Source: Hymenobacter sp. 15J16-1T3B
GTDB taxonomy: Bacteria > Bacteroidota > Bacteroidia > Cytophagales > Hymenobacteraceae
DNA length: 64,000 bases
NCBI RefSeq assembly: GCF_020711235.1
Contig: NZ_JAJFAV010000015.1
Span: 62,001-126,000, forward strand
Direction: 5' to 3'
Shown one piece after another: positions 46,178 to 54,766 of this stretch (positions within the stretch are counted from its first letter, which is position 1; each line of letters opens with the position of its first letter). The position numbers and the translations under genes were made by a program. Below the pieces are notes generated by a model. That model searched no databases. It was not told where the DNA came from and worked only from the letters and a program-made list of their open reading frames with translations.

Positions 46178-47614
46178 CTATTCCCCGCCGTACTTGCTCT
46201 TGCCCACGCCGCCGGCGTCCATGCGCACGATTTTGGGCTGAAACGAGCCGAGCACGTCGACCAAGTCGCGTTGGTGGTCCATCACCTGGTGAATGTCCTT
46301 GTAGGCCATCGGGGCCTCGTCGAGGCCGCCGCCGATGAGCTCCACGCCTTGGTCGCGCAGCAGGCGGCGCAGCTCCCCTTCCGACACCTGCTGCTTGGCC
46401 TGGGTGCGCGAGAGGCGCCGCCCGGCCCCGTGCGCGGCGGATTGGATGGAGTCCCGCTCGCCCCGCCCGCGCACGATGAAGCCGGGCGCGGTCATCGAGC
46501 CGGGAATAACGCCGAGTACGCCCTGGCCGGCCGGGGTGGCGCCCTTGCGGTGCACGATGGCCGTGCGGCCGTCGGCCAGCTCTTCCTTCCAGGCAAAGTT
46601 GTGGTGGTTTTCCACCTTGGCCAGCACCTCCTGGCCCAGCGCCTTGCTGAGGCGGCGGTGAATGTCGCGGTGGCAGGCGGAGGCGTAGTCGCCGGCCAGG
46701 TTCATGGCCGCCCAGTACTCCTGGCCTTCCTGGGTGTGCAGGTCGAGCCAGGCGAGGTAGCGGGCTTCGGGCGGCAAGGGGCAGCGGTTCATGGCCACCT
46801 TGGTGTAGTGCTGGGCAATGGCGGCGCCCAGCCCGCGCGAGCCGCTGTGCGAGAGCAGCCCCAAGTATTGGCCGATGGGCAGGTTCAGGTCGTTGTCTTC
46901 GGCGGTGATGTCGACCATGCCCCACTCCACGAAGTGGTTGCCGGAGCCGGAGGAACCGAGCTGGTTGATGGCCGCTTCGCGCTTGCCGCGCACCACCGGT
47001 ATTTCCTTGAACTCGGGCCGGTCGAGAATGGGGTCGTCGGCGGGCGTCTTGAACACTTCCTTGCCCCCGAAGCGGGTGTGGTTGTGCAGCAGCTTTTTCA
47101 GCTCGTCGCGGCGTTGCTCCAGGTAGCGCGGCGGCACGTCGAACACCGACAGGGCCATGCGGCAGCCGATGTCCATGCCCACGCCGTAGGGGATGACGGC
47201 GTTGTCGACGGCCAGCACCCCGCCGATGGGCAGGCCGTAGCCCTGGTGGGCATCGGGCATGAGCGCCCCGTCGATAGTGACGGGCAGCTGCATGGCCGTG
47301 TCCATCTGCCGGCGGGCGCCGTCCTCGATAAACGAGTCGCCGTAGCGGCGGTAGTCTTTCACGTCGGGGCTCAGGCGCACCTCGCGGCTGGGCTGGGGCA
47401 CTAGCTCCTGGGCCAGGGGGCGCCAGGTTTCGTCGCGCACGTACTTGTAGGGGTCTTGCTTGATGTCGCGCAGCAGGGCCAGGGCGCTGCCTTTGTCGAG
47501 GCGGCGCAGCTCGCGCTGGTCGAGGATATCGAGGGCGAGGCTGATGTGCTTGTCGTCGGTGAAGCCGAGCTGGCGCAGGTCCTTGCCGTGGAGTTTCTGG
47601 GTGTTTTTGGCCAT
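46178..47614 (-). CDS. rtcB: RtcB RNA ligase, paralogue 1
   Basis: 478 residues. RtcB joins RNA 2',3'-cyclic-phosphate or 3'-phosphate ends to 5'-OH ends through a GTP-dependent guanylylated histidine. Metal ligands and catalytic elements are present: GVGMDIGCRMAL, SGSGNHFVEWG, LLSHSGSRGLG, VENHHNFAW, HRKGATPAGQGVLG, MTAPGFIVRG. ATG at 47614. It lies on the same strand as the Y-RNA array, Ro60 and PARG genes but is separated from rtcB-2 by two small genes. Confidence 0.95.
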   Translation of the reverse strand: MAKNTQKLHGKDLRQLGFTDDKHISLALDILDQRELRRLDKGSALALLRDIKQDPYKYVRDETWRPLAQELVPQPSREVRLSPDVKDYRRYGDSFIEDGARRQMDTAMQLPVTIDGALMPDAHQGYGLPIGGVLAVDNAVIPYGVGMDIGCRMALSVFDVPPRYLEQRRDELKKLLHNHTRFGGKEVFKTPADDPILDRPEFKEIPVVRGKREAAINQLGSSGSGNHFVEWGMVDITAEDNDLNLPIGQYLGLLSHSGSRGLGAAIAQHYTKVAMNRCPLPPEARYLAWLDLHTQEGQEYWAAMNLAGDYASACHRDIHRRLSKALGQEVLAKVENHHNFAWKEELADGRTAIVHRKGATPAGQGVLGVIPGSMTAPGFIVRGRGERDSIQSAAHGAGRRLSRTQAKQQVSEGELRRLLRDQGVELIGGGLDEAPMAYKDIHQVMDHQRDLVDVLGSFQPKIVRMDAGGVGKSKYGGE

Positions 47615-48322: not shown

Positions 48323-48874
48323 CTACTCCACCGGCAGGCGGAACATCACGTCGGTGCGCAGCACGTACTTCACGCCTTCGGTCACGCTGCGGCCCAGGTG
48401 GTAGAGGCCGTGCTCGAACACGAGCAGGCGGCCTTGCTTGGGCCACACGCGCAGGTCGCGGAAGGCCGTGTCGCCGCCCTGGAAGTTGTCGTTCAGGTAC
48501 ACCATGAAAGTCAGCAGGCTGGCTTCGCTGGGGCTGCGCACGAAGCTTTGGTCGTAGTGGCCGCGAAACTGCTGCTCCCGCTCGTAGCGGTAGAAGCGGA
48601 ACAGCTCGTTCAGGCCCAGCGCCCGGCTGCGCCCAAATTCGGCCGGGATGAAGGGCCGGGCCCGCTCCCACAGCTGGTGGGCCAGCTCTTCGCTGCGGTG
48701 AAAGGCGCGGCTGTTGTTGCGCACGGCGGGCATCAGCCGGGCGCCCTTGGTGGTGTTGATTTTGGCGGCCTCGTAGCCCAGTTGCTCACTAAGCACCAAA
48801 TATTCCAGGCATTCCTGGCGGGTCAGAAAATCGTCGACGGTAAAGATTGATTCGGCTAGCTGAGTTCGGGTCAT
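48323..48874 (-). CDS. 2-oxoglutarate/Fe(II) oxygenase, prolyl-4-hydroxylase-like
   Basis: 183 residues. Double-stranded beta-helix fold: HxD at His106/Asp108 (RGHYDQS), distal His159 in YHLGRSVTEG, Lys169 for 2-oxoglutarate, and FMVYLNDNFQGGDTAF. It probably hydroxylates a protein or nucleic-acid residue. It sits between two rtcB paralogues on the same strand. Whether it modifies the RNA or the repair proteins is unknown. Confidence 0.8.
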   Translation of the reverse strand: MTRTQLAESIFTVDDFLTRQECLEYLVLSEQLGYEAAKINTTKGARLMPAVRNNSRAFHRSEELAHQLWERARPFIPAEFGRSRALGLNELFRFYRYEREQQFRGHYDQSFVRSPSEASLLTFMVYLNDNFQGGDTAFRDLRVWPKQGRLLVFEHGLYHLGRSVTEGVKYVLRTDVMFRLPVE

Positions 48875-48887
48875 GAGTAGTAGAAGC

Positions 48888-48961
48888 GTGGATGAGTGAA
48901 TAGGTGGATGGATGACGAGTAGATAAAAAAGCCCGTCATCCTGCGCAGAGCGAAGGATGAC
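48888..48961. repeat. GTGGATGA-type degenerate tandem words and a small GTCATCCT hairpin
   Basis: 48888-48925 consists of degenerate words (GTGGATGAGTGAATAGGTGG). 48935-48961 is a hairpin with GTCATCCT and AGGATGAC ends. Both lie between the P4H-like gene start and the rtcB-2 stop. Confidence 0.55.
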
Positions 48962-48984
48962 AGCTCCGAAACAGACTCTCTGCT

Positions 48985-50388
48985 TTAGGCGCCGCCGTCC
49001 ATGCGCACGATTTTGGGCGTGAAGGTGCCGAGCACGTCTACCAGCTCCTGTTGGCTTTGCATCACCTGGTGAATGTCCTTGTAGGCCATCGGCGCTTCGT
49101 CGAGGCCGCCGCCGATGAGCTCCACGCCGTGCTGCTGCAGGTGACGGCGCACCTCGGCTTCGCCCAGTTCGGCCTTGGCCCGGGTGCGCGACATCAGCCG
49201 GCCCGCCCCGTGCGAGGCCGAGGCCAAGGAATCGGCCACCCCGCGGCCCCGCACGATAAAGCCGGGGGCGGTCATCGAGCCGGGAATGACGCCGAGCACG
49301 CCCCGGCCGGCCGGCGTGGCGCCCTTGCGGTGCACCACCACCTCGCGGCCGTCGGCGAGGCGCTCCTTCCAAGCGAAGTTGTGGTGGTTTTCCACCTTGG
49401 CCAGGGGCCGCTCGCCCAGGGCCCGGGCCACGCGCTGGTGAATCTGGTGGTGGCAGGCCGAAGCGTAGTCACCGGCCAGGTTCATGGCGGCCCAGTACTC
49501 CTGTCCCCCTTCCGAGTCGAGCGTGAGCCAAGCCAGGTGCTGGGCTTCGGCGGGTAGCTGGCAGGTGTCCTTGGCCAGCTTGGTGTAGTGGTTGGCAATG
49601 CTGGCGCCCAGGCCGCGGGAGCCGGAGTGCGAGAGCAGCCCCAGGTACTGGCCCACCGGCACGCCCATGTCATTGGTCGGGTCGGTAATTTCCACGATGC
49701 CAAACTCGACGAAGTGGTTGCCGGAACCGGAGGTACCGATTTGCGCCGCCGCCGTTTCTTGCTTGTTGCGCAAGAAGGGTATCGAGGCAAATTCGTCGCG
49801 CTCCAGCACTTCGTGGCCCAGCTTCTGGCCGTGGCGAAACACGTCGCGGTTGCCGAATTTGGTGGTCGTGAGCAGCACGTTGCGCAGCTCCTGCACCCGC
49901 TGGGTGAGATAGTGCGGGGGCAGGGCGAAGATGGACAAGGCCATGCGGCAGCCGATGTCGACGCCCACCGCGTACGGGATGACGGCGTTGTCCGTCGCCA
50001 GCACCCCGCCGATGGGCAGGCCGTAGCCGTGGTGGGCGTCGGGCATGAGGGCCCCGGCCACCGTGACGGGCAGCTTCATGGCCGTTTCCATCTGGTGAAT
50101 GGCGCCCGGCTCGATGTGCTCGGCGCCGTAGAGCACGTAGTCCTTGCGGGCCGCCAGGGCAATGTGGCGGCTGGGCGGGGGCAGCAGGGCCGCCGCGGTG
50201 TGTCTCCAGTCGAGGTCGGTGAGGAAGTTGGTAGGGGTTTGCAGCAGGAGTTTGAGCAGCGCCAATTGCTCGGTGTGCGAGAGGCGCTTGAGGTGCTTGC
50301 GCTGCAGTTGAGCCAGCGCCAGCCCGATGGCCCGACCTTCCGGGAAACCCAGTTGGCGAAGGTCGTTGCCGCGTAATTGATTGGCCAT
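48985..50388 (-). CDS. RtcB RNA ligase, paralogue 2
   Basis: 467 residues, with the same catalytic blocks as paralogue 1 (GVDIGCRMALS, GSGNHFVEFG, LSHSGSRGLG, VENHHNFAW, HRKGATPAG). It differs clearly in its first 60 residues and in surface loops. Start MANQLRGNDLRQLGF at 50388. It is the gene immediately downstream of the Y-RNA array, separated by a terminator-like structure at 50427-50563. Two RtcB copies imply different substrates or partners. Confidence 0.95.
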   Translation of the reverse strand: MANQLRGNDLRQLGFPEGRAIGLALAQLQRKHLKRLSHTEQLALLKLLLQTPTNFLTDLDWRHTAAALLPPPSRHIALAARKDYVLYGAEHIEPGAIHQMETAMKLPVTVAGALMPDAHHGYGLPIGGVLATDNAVIPYAVGVDIGCRMALSIFALPPHYLTQRVQELRNVLLTTTKFGNRDVFRHGQKLGHEVLERDEFASIPFLRNKQETAAAQIGTSGSGNHFVEFGIVEITDPTNDMGVPVGQYLGLLSHSGSRGLGASIANHYTKLAKDTCQLPAEAQHLAWLTLDSEGGQEYWAAMNLAGDYASACHHQIHQRVARALGERPLAKVENHHNFAWKERLADGREVVVHRKGATPAGRGVLGVIPGSMTAPGFIVRGRGVADSLASASHGAGRLMSRTRAKAELGEAEVRRHLQQHGVELIGGGLDEAPMAYKDIHQVMQSQQELVDVLGTFTPKIVRMDGGA

Positions 50389-50563: not shown

Positions 50564-50577
50564 CATTCGCCCACCAA

Positions 50578-50679
50578 CAGCCGGAGCAACAGGGCGGCCC
50601 GCGTACAAATGGGGTACACCTCGCGGCGTACTACCCGACGTGACAGGTCGAAGTAACGCGGGCCTACGGCATCCGGCCG
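50578..50679 (-). ncRNA. Y-RNA-like unit 9 (hairpin type)
   Basis: Lower stem CGGCCGGA/TCCGGCTG; conserved GATGCCGTAG; upper stem GGCCCGCGT/ACGCGGGCC (perfect 9 bp); conserved TACTTCG; 3' internal loop with GTTGCTCC. The distal part is a hairpin (GGGTA..TACCC) instead of a tRNA-like domain. Confidence 0.75.
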
Positions 50680-50696
50680 ATTGGGCGGGTAGAGTT

Positions 50697-50786
50697 GGGC
50701 CGGGGTAATCAATCGGTGGCCTGCTATGCCTAGAAGGGGGTAGCCCTCCAAGGCCCGAAGTATGGCCAGCCTACGCCACCCGGCCC
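50697..50786 (-). ncRNA. Y-RNA-like unit 8 (hairpin type)
   Basis: Lower stem GGGCCGGG/CCCGGCCC; GTGGCGTAG; upper stem GG(C)TGGCC/GGCCACC with one bulge; TACTTCG; distal hairpin GCCTTGGAGGG with CCCCCTTCTAGGC. The shortest unit, without tRNA-like elements. Confidence 0.72.
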
Positions 50787-50795
50787 GCTCCCCCC

Positions 50796-50937
50796 CTGCC
50801 TGGGCAACCAAGCGCGCCGCCTCTTTCTCTTCCTGCTTTTACCCATCAGCCACGGGTGGTTTACAACACACCCGGCGGGACTCGAACCCACATCTTGAAG
50901 TGTACACGAAGTATGGCGGCGCTACGGCACCAGGCAG
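50796..50937 (-). ncRNA. Y-RNA-like unit 7 with tRNA-like domain
   Basis: Lower stem CTGCCTGG/CCAGGCAG; GTGCCGTAG; upper stem GCGCCGCC/GGCGGCGC; TACTTCG; an anticodon-like loop TTCAAGA; T arm GTGGG-TTCGAGT-CCCGC; acceptor-like CGGGTG/CACCCG closed by a 10-base loop; D-like arm GCTGATGGGTAAAAGC; then GTTGCCC. Confidence 0.82.
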
Positions 50938-50945
50938 AAACAAAA

Positions 50946-51102
50946 GCTGCTTACCAGGGCTACCAACGGCGGGCGTTCCAGGTGCCGCCCCTGGCGGAGC
51001 GGGCACCTACCGGCCACCGAAGCGGCCGGGTGAAGGAGTTGAACCTACTAAACGAAAACGTCTTACCGAAGTAACACCCGCCTACGACACCCGGTAGGCA
51101 GC
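50946..51102 (-). ncRNA. Y-RNA-like unit 6 with tRNA-like domain
   Basis: Lower stem GCTGC..TACC..GGG with CCC..GGTA..GCAGC; GTGTCGTAG; upper stem GGCGGGTGTT/AACGCCCGCC (10 bp); TACTTCG; T arm GTAGG-TTCAACT-CCTTC; acceptor-like CGGCCGC-TTCG-GTGGCCG (UUCG loop). The D arm is replaced by a long hairpin (AGGTGCC/GGCACCT). A T-rich stretch follows the unit. Confidence 0.8.
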
Positions 51103-51113
51103 CATGCAAATAA

Positions 51114-51250
51114 CCGTTGGGGCAACTGGGCGCCCGGCCCGATCCTGCTCTACCAAACTGAGCTACCGCTGCCAGAGCAGCGGGGAGGATTCGAACCTCC
51201 GACCCGGGCATTAAAAGTGCGAAGTAGGGCCGAGCTACGGCACCCAACGG
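51114..51250 (-). ncRNA. Y-RNA-like unit 5 with tRNA-Lys-like domain
   Basis: Lower stem CCGTTGGG/CCCAACGG; GTGCCGTAG; upper stem GCTCGGCCC/GGGCCGGGC (9 bp, one wobble); TACTTCG; anticodon-like loop CTTTTAA (UUU) on a GCA/TGC stem; T arm GGAGG-TTCGAAT-CCTCC; acceptor CCGCTGC-TCTG-GCAGCGG; D arm GCTCAGTTTGGTAGAGC; GTTGCCC. The clearest tRNA mimic of the set. Confidence 0.88.
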
Positions 51251-51253
51251 TCA

Positions 51254-51405
51254 TACTATCCGAGGCAACAACGCGCCCAGCCTACGAACCTGCTCTAACC
51301 CCTGAGCTACCGCCGGCTCTGGCGAGCCAACGGGCGGGAATCGAACCCGCGACCCGGCGAATCACAATCGAAGTACGGCTGAGCTACGGCACTCGGTGTA
51401 CAGTA
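51254..51405 (-). ncRNA. Y-RNA-like unit 4 with tRNA-His-like domain
   Basis: Lower stem CCGAG/CTCGG (with an outer TACT/AGTA); GTGCCGTAG; upper stem GCTCAGCC/GGCTGGGC; TACTTCG; anticodon-like loop TTGTGAT (GUG) on CGA/TCG; T arm GCGGG-TTCGATT-CCCGC; acceptor 10-bp stem closed by GCCA; D arm GCTCAGGGGTTAGAGC; GTTGCC. The lower-stem CTC/GAG replaces CCC/GGG of other units, a compensatory change. Confidence 0.87.
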
Positions 51406-51411
51406 GCATTT

Positions 51412-51572
51412 CGGGCAAAGGCGGGACAACAGGGCGGCGCGCCCCTTGCATTAGCGTGTCTACCCGTTTCACCACGGGCCGCCTCGCGGCAACCCGGCAG
51501 GACTCGAACCCGCACGCCTGACGGCACTAATTCCCACGAAGTACGGCGCGCTTACGGCACCCGCTTCGCCCG
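51412..51572 (-). ncRNA. Y-RNA-like unit 3 with tRNA-Leu-like domain
   Basis: Lower stem CGGGC..GCGGG with CCCGC..GCCCG; GTGCCGTA; upper stem GCGCGCC/GGCGCGC; TACTTCG; anticodon-stem halves ATTAG and CTAAT in the 3' and 5' parts; variable arm GCCGTCAGGCG; T arm GCGGG-TTCGAGT-CCTGC; acceptor 9-bp stem with a GCGA loop; D arm GGTGAAACGGGTAGACAC, as in tRNA-Leu; GTTGTCC. Confidence 0.87.
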
Positions 51573-51714
51573 ATAAAAACAAATCCGCCGGGGTAAAATG
51601 AGCCTCACTTCTGCTCTACCATTGAGCTACGGGCCCAGAATTGGCATTCTTGGGTGGGCCCGATAAGAGTCGAACTTATAACCCGAAGTAGGTGAAGGCA
51701 ACGACACCCGGCGG
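51573..51714 (-). ncRNA. Y-RNA-like unit 2 with tRNA-like domain lacking an anticodon arm, plus a T-run
   Basis: Lower stem CCGCCGGG/CCCGGCGG (51714-51585); GTGTCGTTG; upper stem GCCT(T)CAC/GTGAGGC; TACTTCG; T arm ATAAG-TTCGACT-CTTAT follows after a few bases, leaving no anticodon arm; acceptor CGGGCCC/GGGCCCG closed by a loop with its own AGAAT/ATTCT hairpin; D arm GCTCAATGGTAGAGC. The 3' loop is TCATTTTA instead of GTTG. GTTTTTAT at 51580-51573 makes the end terminator-like. Confidence 0.82.
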
Positions 51715-51734
51715 GGTATCGGCGGGGCTTCGGC

Positions 51735-51873
51735 AACGGCCGGGGCAACAGGCGCAGCGCGTGTATTTTCCTACTGCCGCCAAAGCAGCAGCGCGGGATT
51801 CGAACCCGAAGCCACCCCGTGAGGCAACCCGAAACAGCCACGAAGTAACGCCCCGCTACGGCACCCGGCCGCT
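51735..51873 (-). ncRNA. Y-RNA-like unit 1 with tRNA-like domain
   Basis: Lower stem AGCGGCCGGG/CCCGGCCGTT; GTGCCGTAG; upper stem GCGGGGCGT/ACGCGCTGC (one mismatch); TACTTCG; long variable-arm-like segment; T arm with GGGTTCGAATCCC; acceptor CTGCTGC-TTTG-GCGGCAG; degenerate D region; GTTGCCC. It is the promoter-proximal unit, 73 bases after the PARG stop codon. Confidence 0.84.
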
Positions 51874-51945: not shown

Positions 51946-52779
51946 CTATTGAAAGGCCTCCTCGAATGCCCACAGCGTGTCGTGCGGCGGCTTGGGGTCG
52001 AAGACGGCAAAGTCGATGCGCTTGAAGTGGCTGCTGACGTTCAGCTCGCGCAGAGCTTCTGCGAACAGCTGCGCTACCTGCGCCGGCTCGTTGCCAAATA
52101 CCCCGCAGCCCCAGGCCCCGAGCACCAGGACCTCGCAGCCGTGGCGGGCCGCCGCGCCCAGCACCAGCCGGATGCGCCGCTGCATGGTGGGCACTAGCGC
52201 CGGCAGCAATTCAGGGTTGTTGCGGCGCAGCGCCCCGGCATTTACTGCCGGCGCCGTTAGCACGTCGATGCAGTAGGGCTGCTCCAGCCAGCGCCCGGCG
52301 TCGTCGCGGACGACGGGCACCGCGGGGGAGTAGATCAGGTAGTCGCTGTAGAGGCCGTTGAGGTGGGCATTGTGCTGATACATCTCGCTGAACTGCGCAA
52401 TGCACGGATACAAGCCCGAGGAGCGGGCCAGGCTTTCTTCCTGGGCCTGACTGCCGCCCAGAAAGCCGCCCCCAGGGTTGCGGGCCGAAGCAAAGTTCAG
52501 TACGCCCACACGACCAAACTCCCGGCAAAGCGCCTCGGCGGCCTGCAGGGTGGTGGCCTGGTACACGCGCACCTCGGCGGGTTGAGCGTCCGGCAGGGCC
52601 GCGCCGAGTTCCTGCCCCAGCGCGTCGGCGTCCGCCGGCCGGTAGAGCAGGCTGCCGTGATGGGCAGCGTGTTGCCAGGCCTCGATAGTCACTTCCCGGC
52701 CGGTGGCGGTCCGGTAGCGGCCCGTTTCCAGGGCATCGAGGGTGAGGCGGGCCAGTTGTTGACGTTGTTCGCGGTTCAT
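51946..52779 (-). CDS. TIGR02452-family PARG-type ADP-ribose glycohydrolase
   Basis: 277 residues. Macrodomain-like fold with the PARG signature: Gly103-Gly105 of NPGGGFLGG and Gln113-Glu114-Glu115 of SQAQEESL. LVLGAWGCGVFGN is the second phosphate loop. It would remove ADP-ribose or poly-ADP-ribose from proteins or RNA ends. It is directly upstream of the Y-RNA array on the same strand and probably shares a transcript with it. Start MNREQ chosen over an in-frame codon 24 bases upstream. Confidence 0.88.
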   Translation of the reverse strand: MNREQRQQLARLTLDALETGRYRTATGREVTIEAWQHAAHHGSLLYRPADADALGQELGAALPDAQPAEVRVYQATTLQAAEALCREFGRVGVLNFASARNPGGGFLGGSQAQEESLARSSGLYPCIAQFSEMYQHNAHLNGLYSDYLIYSPAVPVVRDDAGRWLEQPYCIDVLTAPAVNAGALRRNNPELLPALVPTMQRRIRLVLGAAARHGCEVLVLGAWGCGVFGNEPAQVAQLFAEALRELNVSSHFKRIDFAVFDPKPPHDTLWAFEEAFQ

Positions 52780-53236
52780 TGGGGCAGGTGGTGTCGGCAG
52801 CATCCGGACGCGGGGCGCGGCGGCCCAGTTGCCGCCGCGCCATGCCGCTTGAGGGTTGCGGTCTGGTTTAGAATCAGGAGTAAAGTCAGGCGGTAAAGCA
52901 GCGCACGGGCATCAGCGGTAAGAATCTTCGGGTAAGGAGTCGGTAAGAATGGGCACGTAAGCAGGCCGCTTTACCGCCTGGATTAATGGAATTATCAGGT
53001 AGGCTGCCGAGGGCAGTCGAAGCAACGTTACCGCCTCGTGGCCTCCTCCAGACCGTCCTGTCGAGCTTGTCGAGACATCTCGCGGGCTGATGCTGGCTAG
53101 TAATTTTACTATCCAGCGAAGCGGTAGAGATGCTTCGCTCTGGCTCAGCATGACGTTCTAGATTTATCAGTTCAACGACGCACGCGAGATGTCTCGACTG
53201 CGCTCGACAGGACGGGCTACTATCAGCGGAGCGACA
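52780..53236. other. Intergenic region between the PARG and Ro60 genes
   Basis: 457 bases without a gene. It holds a perfect 11-bp hairpin at 52814-52841 (GGCGCGGCGGC/GCCGCCGCGCC), 35 bases upstream of the PARG start on the minus strand, several CGGTAA/TTACCG words (52890-53035), and the family A repeat listed separately. Confidence 0.55.
53053..53215. repeat. Dispersed palindromic repeat, family A (copy 2)
   Basis: The left end CCGTCCTGTCGAGC..GTCGAGACATCTCGCG matches the complement of the right end CGCGAGATGTCTCGAC..GCTCGACAGGACGG. The core has TAGTAATT and a second pair of short arms. Ends 21 bases after the Ro60 stop codon. Confidence 0.8.
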
Positions 53237-54766
53237 TTACAGCTCGATTCGCTCAATTTCCGTCAGGGCCGAGCCGCCGTTTTCCAGCGCCTGCAGCACG
53301 TCGAAAACTTTGTCGGACCAGCCGGCGATGAGCGCCACTCCCTCCTGCTCGTGCACTTGCACCGGGGTGGTGCCGTGCCCGGCCAGGTCGAAGAGGTAGA
53401 GGCGGGCCTGCGGGGCCACGGCGCGGCGGTAGGCAGCCCATTCCTGGGCCAGCGTGCCGCCGTCGCCGGTGCTGTTCCACAGCTGGCCGTCGGTGAAGAT
53501 CATGACCTTGTCGACGGCTTCGGCCCGCAGGCGCAGGTCGCGCACCACCAAGTAGCCGTTGGTGCTGTAGCCCACCTCGCCTTCGCGGCGGTAGAGCTCC
53601 TGCACGTTGCTCAGCACTTGGTTTTGCGGCAGCTGCACGCGCTTCCAGATGTTGCCGAACATGCCGGTCACCACGTGGGCGCAGCGCGCCTGCAGCAACA
53701 TGCCCAGCACCAGCCCGATGTCGTAGTACTGCACCTTGCTGCGGGCCGAAACCGGCTGCTGCATGGAGCCCGACACGTCGCAGGCCACCACCACGCGGGT
53801 GTCGGCGCCGAAACCGCGCAGGTTGGCGGTGGAGTGGCCAATGGCCGTTTCCAGCGCCGTGAGCACCCGGGCCAGGTGCCCGGAACGCACCTGCAACAGC
53901 TCCCGGTAGGCGGCTAGGAAGCGGAAGGGCAGCTGCTTGCTGCGCTGCACCGCCCGCTCGTCCGTCAGCGTAGCCACCACGCGCTCCATCGCTGCAGCCG
54001 ATACCTCGGCTTCGAGGATGTTGCGCAGGTTGCGCAGCAGGGCCATGTAGCCCAGCTTGCCGCTGCTAATCAGCTCCTCCCACTTCTGGCGGAAGGCCGT
54101 CTGCCGTTCCGTTGCATCCGCAAACGTCTGCTGGCCCAGGGCCGACAGCTCCGTTTCCCAGGTGTAGGGCGTGGGCAGCTCGCCGCGCACCAGCTGGTCG
54201 AACAGCACTTGCTGCTCGGGGCTGTTGGCCTGCGGGTGCACCAAGAATAAGGCGTCGCGCAGGCGCACCTGCCCGGCGCGGTCGTACTTGGCCAGCTGGT
54301 AGCCGTCGAAGCGGTTGAAAGCCAGGGCCAGGCCCTTCTGCAGCTGCTTGGAGAGACGGTTCAGGGTTTTGGGGCCCTGGCGCTGGTTGGCCACGGCGTA
54401 GAAGGCCAGCAGCTCGGTAATCTCGTCGGCGCGCTGCACCACGCGGGCCACTAAGCGGCTCACCAGGTTGTCGCCGCGGTGCACCTGAGCCAGCTCCACG
54501 GCCAGCACCAGCGGCACGGTGCGCAGGTAGAGCTGCTCGCGGGCGTACACGGCCAGCTGGGCCACGAAGCGCGGCTCGTTCTGGCGGATCAGCTGGCGCA
54601 GGCGCTGCAAGCGGGTGTCGGCGGTTTCGTAAAACTGGTCGCTGAGCCCGGCCGTAGCCACGGCGGCGTACAGCTCCAGCTGCGGAGTCAGAGTGAAAGC
54701 CGCCGCGCCCTCGTGGTTCACCACGGCCGTCGGCTTGTTTTTGCGGAAGCTAAAGTTGAAGCGCAT
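53237..54766 (-). CDS. Ro60-family TROVE-domain RNA-binding protein
   Basis: 509 residues. N-terminal TROVE ring of helical repeats (about 1-320: RLRQLIRQNEPRFVAQLAVYAREQLYLR, RGDNLVSRLVARVVQRADEI), then a vWA domain with the MIDAS motif VVACDVSGSMQQP and MIFTDGQLWN. Ro60 rings bind misfolded RNA ends in the cavity and Y RNAs on the outside. Bacterial Ro60 genes usually lie near Y-RNA genes and often near rtcB, as here. ATG at 54766. Confidence 0.95.
   Translation of the reverse strand: MRFNFSFRKNKPTAVVNHEGAAAFTLTPQLELYAAVATAGLSDQFYETADTRLQRLRQLIRQNEPRFVAQLAVYAREQLYLRTVPLVLAVELAQVHRGDNLVSRLVARVVQRADEITELLAFYAVANQRQGPKTLNRLSKQLQKGLALAFNRFDGYQLAKYDRAGQVRLRDALFLVHPQANSPEQQVLFDQLVRGELPTPYTWETELSALGQQTFADATERQTAFRQKWEELISSGKLGYMALLRNLRNILEAEVSAAAMERVVATLTDERAVQRSKQLPFRFLAAYRELLQVRSGHLARVLTALETAIGHSTANLRGFGADTRVVVACDVSGSMQQPVSARSKVQYYDIGLVLGMLLQARCAHVVTGMFGNIWKRVQLPQNQVLSNVQELYRREGEVGYSTNGYLVVRDLRLRAEAVDKVMIFTDGQLWNSTGDGGTLAQEWAAYRRAVAPQARLYLFDLAGHGTTPVQVHEQEGVALIAGWSDKVFDVLQALENGGSALTEIERIEL

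Follow-up and report, generated by a model that had tools for sequence, protein, structure and literature searches.

What are the repeated RNAs that stand in tandem beside a Ro60 gene in Hymenobacter sp. 15J16-1T3B, and what might the tRNA-like parts of some of them do? The window analysed here, a whole 64-kb stretch of DNA from contig NZ_JAJFAV010000015.1 (positions 62,001 to 126,000), carries between its PARG and rtcB genes an array of nine minus-strand units at 50577-51872, which a preliminary description took for an expanded family of Y RNAs serving the Ro60 encoded 1.4 kb away. Its count and placement hold: a covariance model, here called R1 and built from 20 units of 17 genomes (the window contributed units 4 and 5 only), was searched in the window and in 58 relatives and recovered the array, with exactly nine matches in the 64 kb, all at this place on the minus strand (28.6-123 bits). 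TACTTCG, described as invariant, is indeed present in 9/9 units, and the end of the Ro60 gene, which lies upstream on the same strand, is 1.36 kb from the array. The more important finding is a bacterial Y RNA variant that displays a tRNA anticodon arm: judging from sequence comparison, a subset of units almost certainly consists of a permuted tRNA, complete in other respects, with the Ro60-type stem inserted within its anticodon stem.

The nine units share an anchor, GUGCCGUA-N9-UACUUCG or a near variant, and start 107-168 nucleotides (nt) apart. Their Y stem consists of a lower stem, an asymmetric internal loop (GUGCCGUA / GUUGCC or variants), an upper stem, and UACUU. The 5' half of a full unit runs from the lower stem, loop, upper stem, and UACUU through the anticodon arm (where there is one) and variable region to the T arm, and the 3' half from the acceptor 3' strand, a loop, the acceptor 5' strand, and the D arm back through the upper stem and the GUUGCC loop to the lower stem. 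Many units carry such a circularly permuted tRNA domain, and the permutation is the one published for the Y RNA YrlA (excerpts of PMC8394870 and PMC11472068).

Several tests bear on the arm itself. The anticodon stem of a tRNA has five pairs; in the split arm, three of these are local, and the other two are made by nucleotides after position 26, beyond the T and D arms. In 29/104 units of the first 18 loci, against 2.6 expected, UACUU is followed immediately by a short hairpin, as it is in 96/532 units of 100 loci, against 10.7 expected. To these we added a test of the split stem on 593 distinct units from 109 loci (duplicates removed), of which 373 had no recognised D arm and were left out, so that 220 remain. 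Seventy-nine units have a 3-bp hairpin; 12 had no D arm found, and in all 67 of the others the two distant pairs (27-43 and 28-42) form, through 11 dinucleotide combinations (for example GG/CC, AC/GT, GC/GC, and CA/TG). With the D sides exchanged among these units, 27.7 pair on average and 37 at most, and with the register shifted by -3 to +4 only 0-8 do. A second class has its stem split 2+3, and here 22/29 units pair, against a permuted mean of 8.2 and a maximum of 13. With no condition on loop letters, a split stem with a 7-nt loop is found in 105 of the 220 units, loops of 4, 5, 6, 8, 9, 10, and 11 nt in 2, 9, 5, 4, 1, 3, and 5 units, and linker shuffles give 8.5 units with a 7-nt-loop split stem, at most 17. 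Chance hairpins are ruled out by these shuffles and loop-length controls. The unselected 7-nt-loop units have U33 in 95/105 cases and a purine at position 37 (R37) in 94/105. In the window, units 4 and 5 have an arm of five base pairs with a 7-nt loop, its 5' strand broken between nucleotides 28 and 29 by the Ro60 stem; the two lower pairs join 51356-51357 (CC) with 51289-51290 (GG) in unit 4 and 51206-51207 (CC) with 51144-51145 (GG) in unit 5. The same arm tests found no anticodon arm in units 1, 2, 6, 7, and 8. A different arrangement was seen at two loci, where CTGACTGTTAATCAG forms an uninterrupted tRNA-Asn-like anticodon arm in a register unlike that of the split arms (L121 at ~11038 and L136 at ~11701), and at a third, where the Asn-like arm has a changed loop, CTGTTCA (L127 at ~9968).

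That pairing is conserved in the units and sequence is not, as first described, was confirmed in homologues. Among 20 homologous units, 96.0% of cells are paired, against 72.2% in shuffles and 36-50% with a slid partner, and there are 129 double changes against 35.8 in shuffles; none of 500 shuffles reaches any of five covariation measures. The ends form a stem with an asymmetric internal loop, and its lower and upper parts (94.9% and 96.3% of cells paired) supply 13 of the 22 pairs with double changes. The local anticodon helix is only 86.7% paired in this set, with double changes in one of three pairs, owing to a one-column shift there in four of the 20 rows, those with GCA-type hairpins. 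The comparison thus indicates that structure stays while unit sequences evolve. Thermodynamic folding alone is weaker evidence than covariation: the z-scores of units 1 to 9 are -1.47, -3.97, +0.79, -2.01, -2.01, -5.14, -3.43, -2.52, and -3.09, unit 3 being therefore no more stable than its own shuffles, and the minimum-energy fold of unit 5 contains the anticodon hairpin.

When the domain is rotated back into tRNA order, ARAGORN calls a tRNA in 41/77 units from 18 genomes and in 0/77 in five shuffled sets; 28 of the 105 units extracted were dropped for want of a domain of usable length, and the 105 include false motif matches and units with a wrong 3' end. Units 3, 4, 5, and 7 of the window are among the 41. 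In un-permuted units with an anticodon hairpin, the commonest anticodon called is mostly the hairpin's own, for example tRNA-His(gtg) for variants of unit 4 (155, next Asn(att) with 46) and tRNA-Lys(ttt) for unit 5 (97, next Ala(ggc) with 47), and in units without one, such as unit 3, the calls vary. At E <= 10, four of the nine window units match the Rfam YrlA family RF02553 at 23.8-44.3 bits (E 3e-8 to 0.03): unit 2 (44.3 bits, E 3.2e-8), unit 5 (43.1 bits), unit 4 (32.8 bits), and unit 7 (23.8 bits, E 0.027). The best of them falls below the gathering cut-off of 69 bits, and the units are therefore not filed as members of RF02553; the window has no Rfam match at gathering. Of the YrlA features, the domain of permuted T arm, closed acceptor, and D arm is present in the array, with units 8 and 9 lacking T and D arms, and a Y stem in place of the anticodon arm fits units 2 and 3 (by eye) and not units 4, 5, and 9.

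The tie to Ro60 is close. The TROVE domain was found in 18/58 relatives, and clustered units stand beside Ro60 in 18/18, numbering 2 to 9 per relative once chance motif matches elsewhere are excluded (the fewest, two, on a 5.9-kb contig of G051). In all 18, R1 matches over its full length with 41.4 bits or more; among the matches listed, only one of the 40 Ro60-less relatives, G055, reaches that score over the full length, and the place in question (L208) is a cluster of 13 ordinary tandem tRNA genes. The raw tally at E <= 0.001 is 47/58 genomes, and among the matches listed those in Ro60-less genomes are mostly partial (model positions 31-117 or shorter) and score at most 38.8 bits; further full-length matches lie in G035 (33.2 bits) and, a second time, in G055. 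Four R1 stretches were inspected: the tRNA cluster of G055, two tRNAs in G008, one tRNA at an additional place in G016, which bears Ro60, and relic units in G032. The last genome has no Ro60 match, and its two degenerate units with damaged motifs, directly before rtcB (L210), are apparently a decaying relic array, as expected after Ro60 loss. Across 100 Ro60 loci from named genomes and a phylum sample, 97 have at least two clustered motif matches and three (L148, L203, and L207) have none; these loci are partly of the same species as the 18 relatives, and the two sets of counts are not independent. Together, these comparisons support the prediction that the array units are Y RNAs of the neighbouring Ro60, as the preliminary description proposed, although that account was incomplete, having overlooked both the permutation of the tRNA domain and the presence of anticodon arms. 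Its impression that nine copies are unusual survives in part: loci hold 1 to 11 units (clustered-motif count, duplicate units removed), so that nine is at the high end of the range but not exceptional, with at least nine in 6/109 loci.

Plasmids and phages carry the arm as well. Twenty Ro60 stretches (8 plasmid and 12 phage, chosen from 76 and 95 matching records) contain 33 permuted T+D modules, and a split 3+2 stem with a 7-nt loop is present in 14 of these, in 10 stretches, against 0-2 for other loop lengths; U33 is found in 11 of the 14 arms and R37 in 13. The carriers include the phages CcrColossus and CcrPW of Caulobacter, Olaya of Xanthomonas, Kikimora of Brevundimonas, and Rabbitrun of Gordonia, and plasmids of Rhizobium (two), Shinella, and Xanthomonas sacchari; an arm in Deinococcus gobiensis (loop TTCATTC) is doubtful. 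In five of the 20 stretches (L217, L218, L219, L227, and L228) no R1 match passes the thresholds used, and in a haloarchaeal one that is rich in tRNA genes (L221) the matches are only weak. Since arms occur in plasmids and phages of other phyla, the feature is not peculiar to Hymenobacter. When the X. sacchari RNA is aligned to the Rfam YrlA family, its anticodon hairpin is an insertion, and an anticodon arm may be present but unremarked in known YrlA-type RNAs. In two of the phage records, an annotated tRNA-Gln (CcrColossus, L213 2128-2195) and an annotated tRNA-Ser (Kikimora, L222 2763-2837) overlap R1 matches, and both are probably misannotated Y RNAs because the matches there have Y stems. 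The 348-kb Brevundimonas phage Marchewka bears Ro60 and Y RNA matches and also an Rfam match to permuted tmRNA (L214 6773-7030, 57.2 bits).

The genes around the array (Table 1) belong to a setting of RNA repair. The Ro60 of the window has its best named match in H. jeollabukensis, at 92% identity. RtcB is present in the fetched stretch of 82/118 Ro60 loci and of 13/18 among the relatives, and in a Pfam scan of 86 neighbouring open reading frames (ORFs) of the relatives (103 minus 17 that hold Ro60) it was found 17 times, PNKP_ligase twice, and Hen1_L twice. Several units have counterparts of note elsewhere: Leu-like units resembling unit 3, long variable arm included, recur in relatives (by eye), apparent counterparts of unit 7 in some relatives (orthology by eye) bear a 2+3 anticodon arm, and the position of unit 8 is held in G001 and G003 by a unit with a Phe-type loop, CTGAAAA.

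Table 1. Units of the array, their parts, and neighbouring genes, in window coordinates
Feature	Position	Strand	Description
Unit 1	51736..51872	(-)	Y stem, T arm, closed acceptor hairpin; no D arm recognised by eye; R1 59.8 bits, E 4.9e-14
Unit 2	51584..51715	(-)	Permuted T arm, acceptor hairpin, D arm; no anticodon loop; R1 52.1 bits
Unit 3	51417..51568	(-)	tRNA-Leu-like (class II) domain; no anticodon loop; R1 49.4 bits
Unit 3, long variable arm	51513-51527	(-)	
Unit 3, T arm	51497-51513	(-)	
Unit 3, D arm	51454-51475	(-)	Leu-type
Unit 4	51256..51400	(-)	Permuted tRNA mimic, His-type anticodon arm; R1 123 bits (in training set)
Unit 4, anticodon hairpin	51358..51370	(-)	CGA-TTGTGAT-TCG; loop identical to host tRNA-His(GTG) loop, letter for letter
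Unit 5	51113..51251	(-)	Permuted tRNA mimic, Lys-type anticodon arm; R1 119.6 bits (in training set)
Unit 5, anticodon hairpin	51208..51220	(-)	GCA-CTTTTAA-TGC; loop identical to host tRNA-Lys(TTT) loop, letter for letter
Unit 6	50950..51098	(-)	T arm, variable-arm-like hairpin, long hairpin replacing D arm (by eye); R1 48.3 bits
Unit 7	50795..50938	(-)	Permuted T arm, acceptor hairpin, D arm; R1 70.8 bits
Unit 8	50696..50787	(-)	Short, no tRNA domain; R1 28.6 bits, E 6.7e-6
Unit 9	50577..50680	(-)	Short; Asp-type anticodon hairpin and acceptor-like hairpin; no T or D arm; R1 63.4 bits
Unit 9, anticodon hairpin	50636..50650	(-)	CGAC-CTGTCAC-GTCG; loop identical to host tRNA-Asp(GTC) loop, letter for letter
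Ro60/Rsr gene, presumed binding partner	53237..54766	(-)	509 amino acids; TROVE and Ro60 vWA domains (Pfam); start codon from relatives
PARG, microbial-type	51946..52803	(-)	Between Ro60 and array; Pfam
RtcB RNA ligase	48985..50388	(-)	Directly downstream of array; 467 amino acids; Pfam; start codon at 50388
Second RtcB RNA ligase	46178..47614	(-)	Pfam
2OG-Fe(II) oxygenase ORF	48323..49372	(-)	Pfam; start uncertain, overlaps rtcB

The anticodon is the part of the arm that changes. We compared 71 orthologous unit pairs whose bodies share at least 85% identity; some units enter more than one pair, so that the pairs are not independent. The rate of difference per site is 0.46, 0.49, and 0.44 at positions 34, 35, and 36 and 0.45 at position 38, compared with 0.28 at position 32, 0.13 at position 37, 0.04 at position 33, and 0.12 in the body. 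The anticodon differs in 56/68 orthologous pairs selected for U33, and one pair of loci (L025 and L033) has identical 64-nt bodies with different anticodon hairpins. Taken whole, the loops are closer to real host tRNA loops than shuffling predicts, at a mean distance of 1.43 mismatches against 1.72 when columns are shuffled (0/2000), and 7/63 distinct loops are identical to host tRNA loops against 3.1 by shuffle (P 0.03). Fast loop change of this kind may reflect either diversifying selection or tolerance.

What such a loop might be for is a question to which we offer a tentative answer, one that we hold at somewhat less than an even chance, namely that the units function as decoys or baits for anticodon-directed enzymes. 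Held by Ro60 as tRNA decoys, they would present their anticodon loops to enzymes that bind the anticodons of tRNAs or attack them, of which stress- or phage-related anticodon nucleases would be the likeliest targets. Classical YrlA-type members would link Ro60 with a partner active in tRNA or RNA processing, the adjacent RtcB ligases could seal cut tRNAs and possibly cut decoys, and anticodon switching would follow changing attackers. The RNA-repair context, the carriage by phages, the switching of anticodons with U33 and R37 kept, and the lack of a free CCA end, without which such decoys could not be charged, lend indirect support to this proposal. If anatomy and function are joined in one claim, that the array comprises nine Ro60 Y RNAs of which some are anticodon-bearing tRNA decoys, we find the balance about even. 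In a bolder version, the anticodon-bearing Y RNAs of Bacteroidota, proteobacterial plasmids, and phages, often neighbours of RtcB repair genes, would form a rapidly diversifying library, tethered to Ro60, of decoys or baits for effectors that cut anticodons, with Ro60 as a shield against or sensor of tRNA damage; this is possible, but we incline against it.

A number of observations weigh against decoys of this kind. First, some anticodons are unnatural: the idea that the triplets are always natural was rejected, with A34 in 9/104 arms and the stop anticodon TTA once, and distinct natural triplets are not enriched in the 3+2 class (16/24 against 40/64; 51/67 by unit), both of which fit a loop that tolerates change. 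A deliberate choice of different anticodons within each array was rejected as well, as diversity per array is no higher than in class-preserving shuffles (0/37 within-locus pairs identical, P 0.24; P 0.03 if classes are not preserved). Second, the arm is not general, since the test found no complete arm in 33/109 loci, and among 19 named arm-less loci 11 are from Flavobacterium or Chryseobacterium and one is from Hymenobacter; in addition, the minimum-energy fold of unit 4 prefers another structure, without the arm. Third, no anticodon nuclease was found at the locus (10 window ORFs, Pfam) or in the 86 neighbouring ORFs of the relatives (Pfam, best 25 of 51 families, and PADLOC), and an excerpt of PMC7790460 reports that no fragments of YrlA were detected in Salmonella and that the induced nuclease thus does not have it as a substrate.

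Another possibility, serious although we consider it less likely, is that the tRNA domain and anticodon arm dock Ro60 onto tRNA-binding proteins and that the anticodon decides the partner. The candidates would be PNPase, tRNA-modifying enzymes, synthetases, or RtcB, with different units serving different partners. There is precedent in that a Y RNA tethers Rsr to PNPase and YrlA is modified by DusA and TruB (PMC8394870, in excerpt), and distinct unit types do stand at the same places in sister species (by eye), one of the units being Leu-like with a variable arm. A conserved partner, however, should keep its anticodon, whereas orthologues change at 0.44-0.49 differences per site. Alternatively, the permuted domain may have been copied from tandem tRNA genes and the arm kept to complete an L-shaped fold, the triplet drifting or being gene-converted without function, a serious alternative to which we give the same weight as to docking. 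Tandem tRNA gene junctions have the same permuted order as the tRNA domain of the Y RNAs (L208 and three other places checked), which suggests an origin for the domain, and the tandem cluster of G055 has a full-length R1 match of 41.4 bits in that junction order; unnatural anticodons and the lack of enrichment for natural triplets also speak for a relic. Yet position 33, the purine at 37, and the loop length are held while the stems covary, whole loops are nearer to real tRNA loops than composition predicts, the arms are found again in plasmids and phages from other phyla, and the YrlA consensus lacks the loop. A reading of the units not as Y RNAs but as pseudogenes of tRNAs or a decayed tRNA cluster, as their tRNA-like halves and the two phage annotations overlapping R1 matches could suggest, is contradicted by the lack of any ARAGORN or Rfam tRNA (RF00005) match in the array, the permuted order, the covariation of the Y stems, and the tracking of Ro60 by arrays in 18/18 genomes.

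The wider question touched here is the role of bacterial Ro60 and Y RNAs inside RNA-repair operons, which the studies excerpted in PMC7790460 do not address. An anticodon arm that switches turns the term "tRNA mimic" into a testable prediction of the enzyme addressed, and, if the units do act as decoys, the Ro60 family would be linked to conflicts over tRNA cleavage. For the permuted domain, a simple origin would be the place where two tandem tRNA genes meet.

Among known systems, the vertebrate Y RNA family, Rfam RF00019, has no match in the array at E <= 10, and vertebrate Y RNAs are not known to have a tRNA domain. They have a terminal stem, as the Hymenobacter units do, and are Ro60 partners (PMC4726728, in excerpt), as those units are predicted to be. 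The Y RNA of Deinococcus radiodurans (RYPER) is likewise a partner of Ro60/Rsr and a tether to PNPase, and the excerpts of PMC4726728 and PMC8394870 that report this describe neither anticodon-bearing domains nor large arrays. The Salmonella rsr-yrlBA-rtcBA operon also brings Ro60, Y RNAs, and RtcB together (part of PMC7790460), whereas PARG and a second RtcB gene are present in the Hymenobacter locus, and a Pfam scan of ten neighbouring ORFs shows neither RtcA nor RtcR. The closest relation is to YrlA (RF02553; Salmonella YrlA, PDB 6CU1), which, as excerpts of PMC8394870 and PMC11472068 have it, lies beside Ro60/Rsr and in some bacteria RtcB and combines a terminal Ro60-binding stem with an internal loop and a permuted T arm, closed acceptor hairpin, and D arm. 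Among the papers listed in a literature search that went without several key YrlA papers, we recognised no report of anticodon arms in Y RNAs. The stem motif is AUGC...CUAC in YrlA and GUGCCGUA...UACUU in Hymenobacter, whose units score below the Rfam cut-off and can number nine or more per array. The YrlA consensus lacks an anticodon loop, its Y stem running on through the place of the anticodon arm, whereas in a subset of the Hymenobacter units the Y stem interrupts the anticodon stem, and the anticodon stem-loop presents diverse anticodons.

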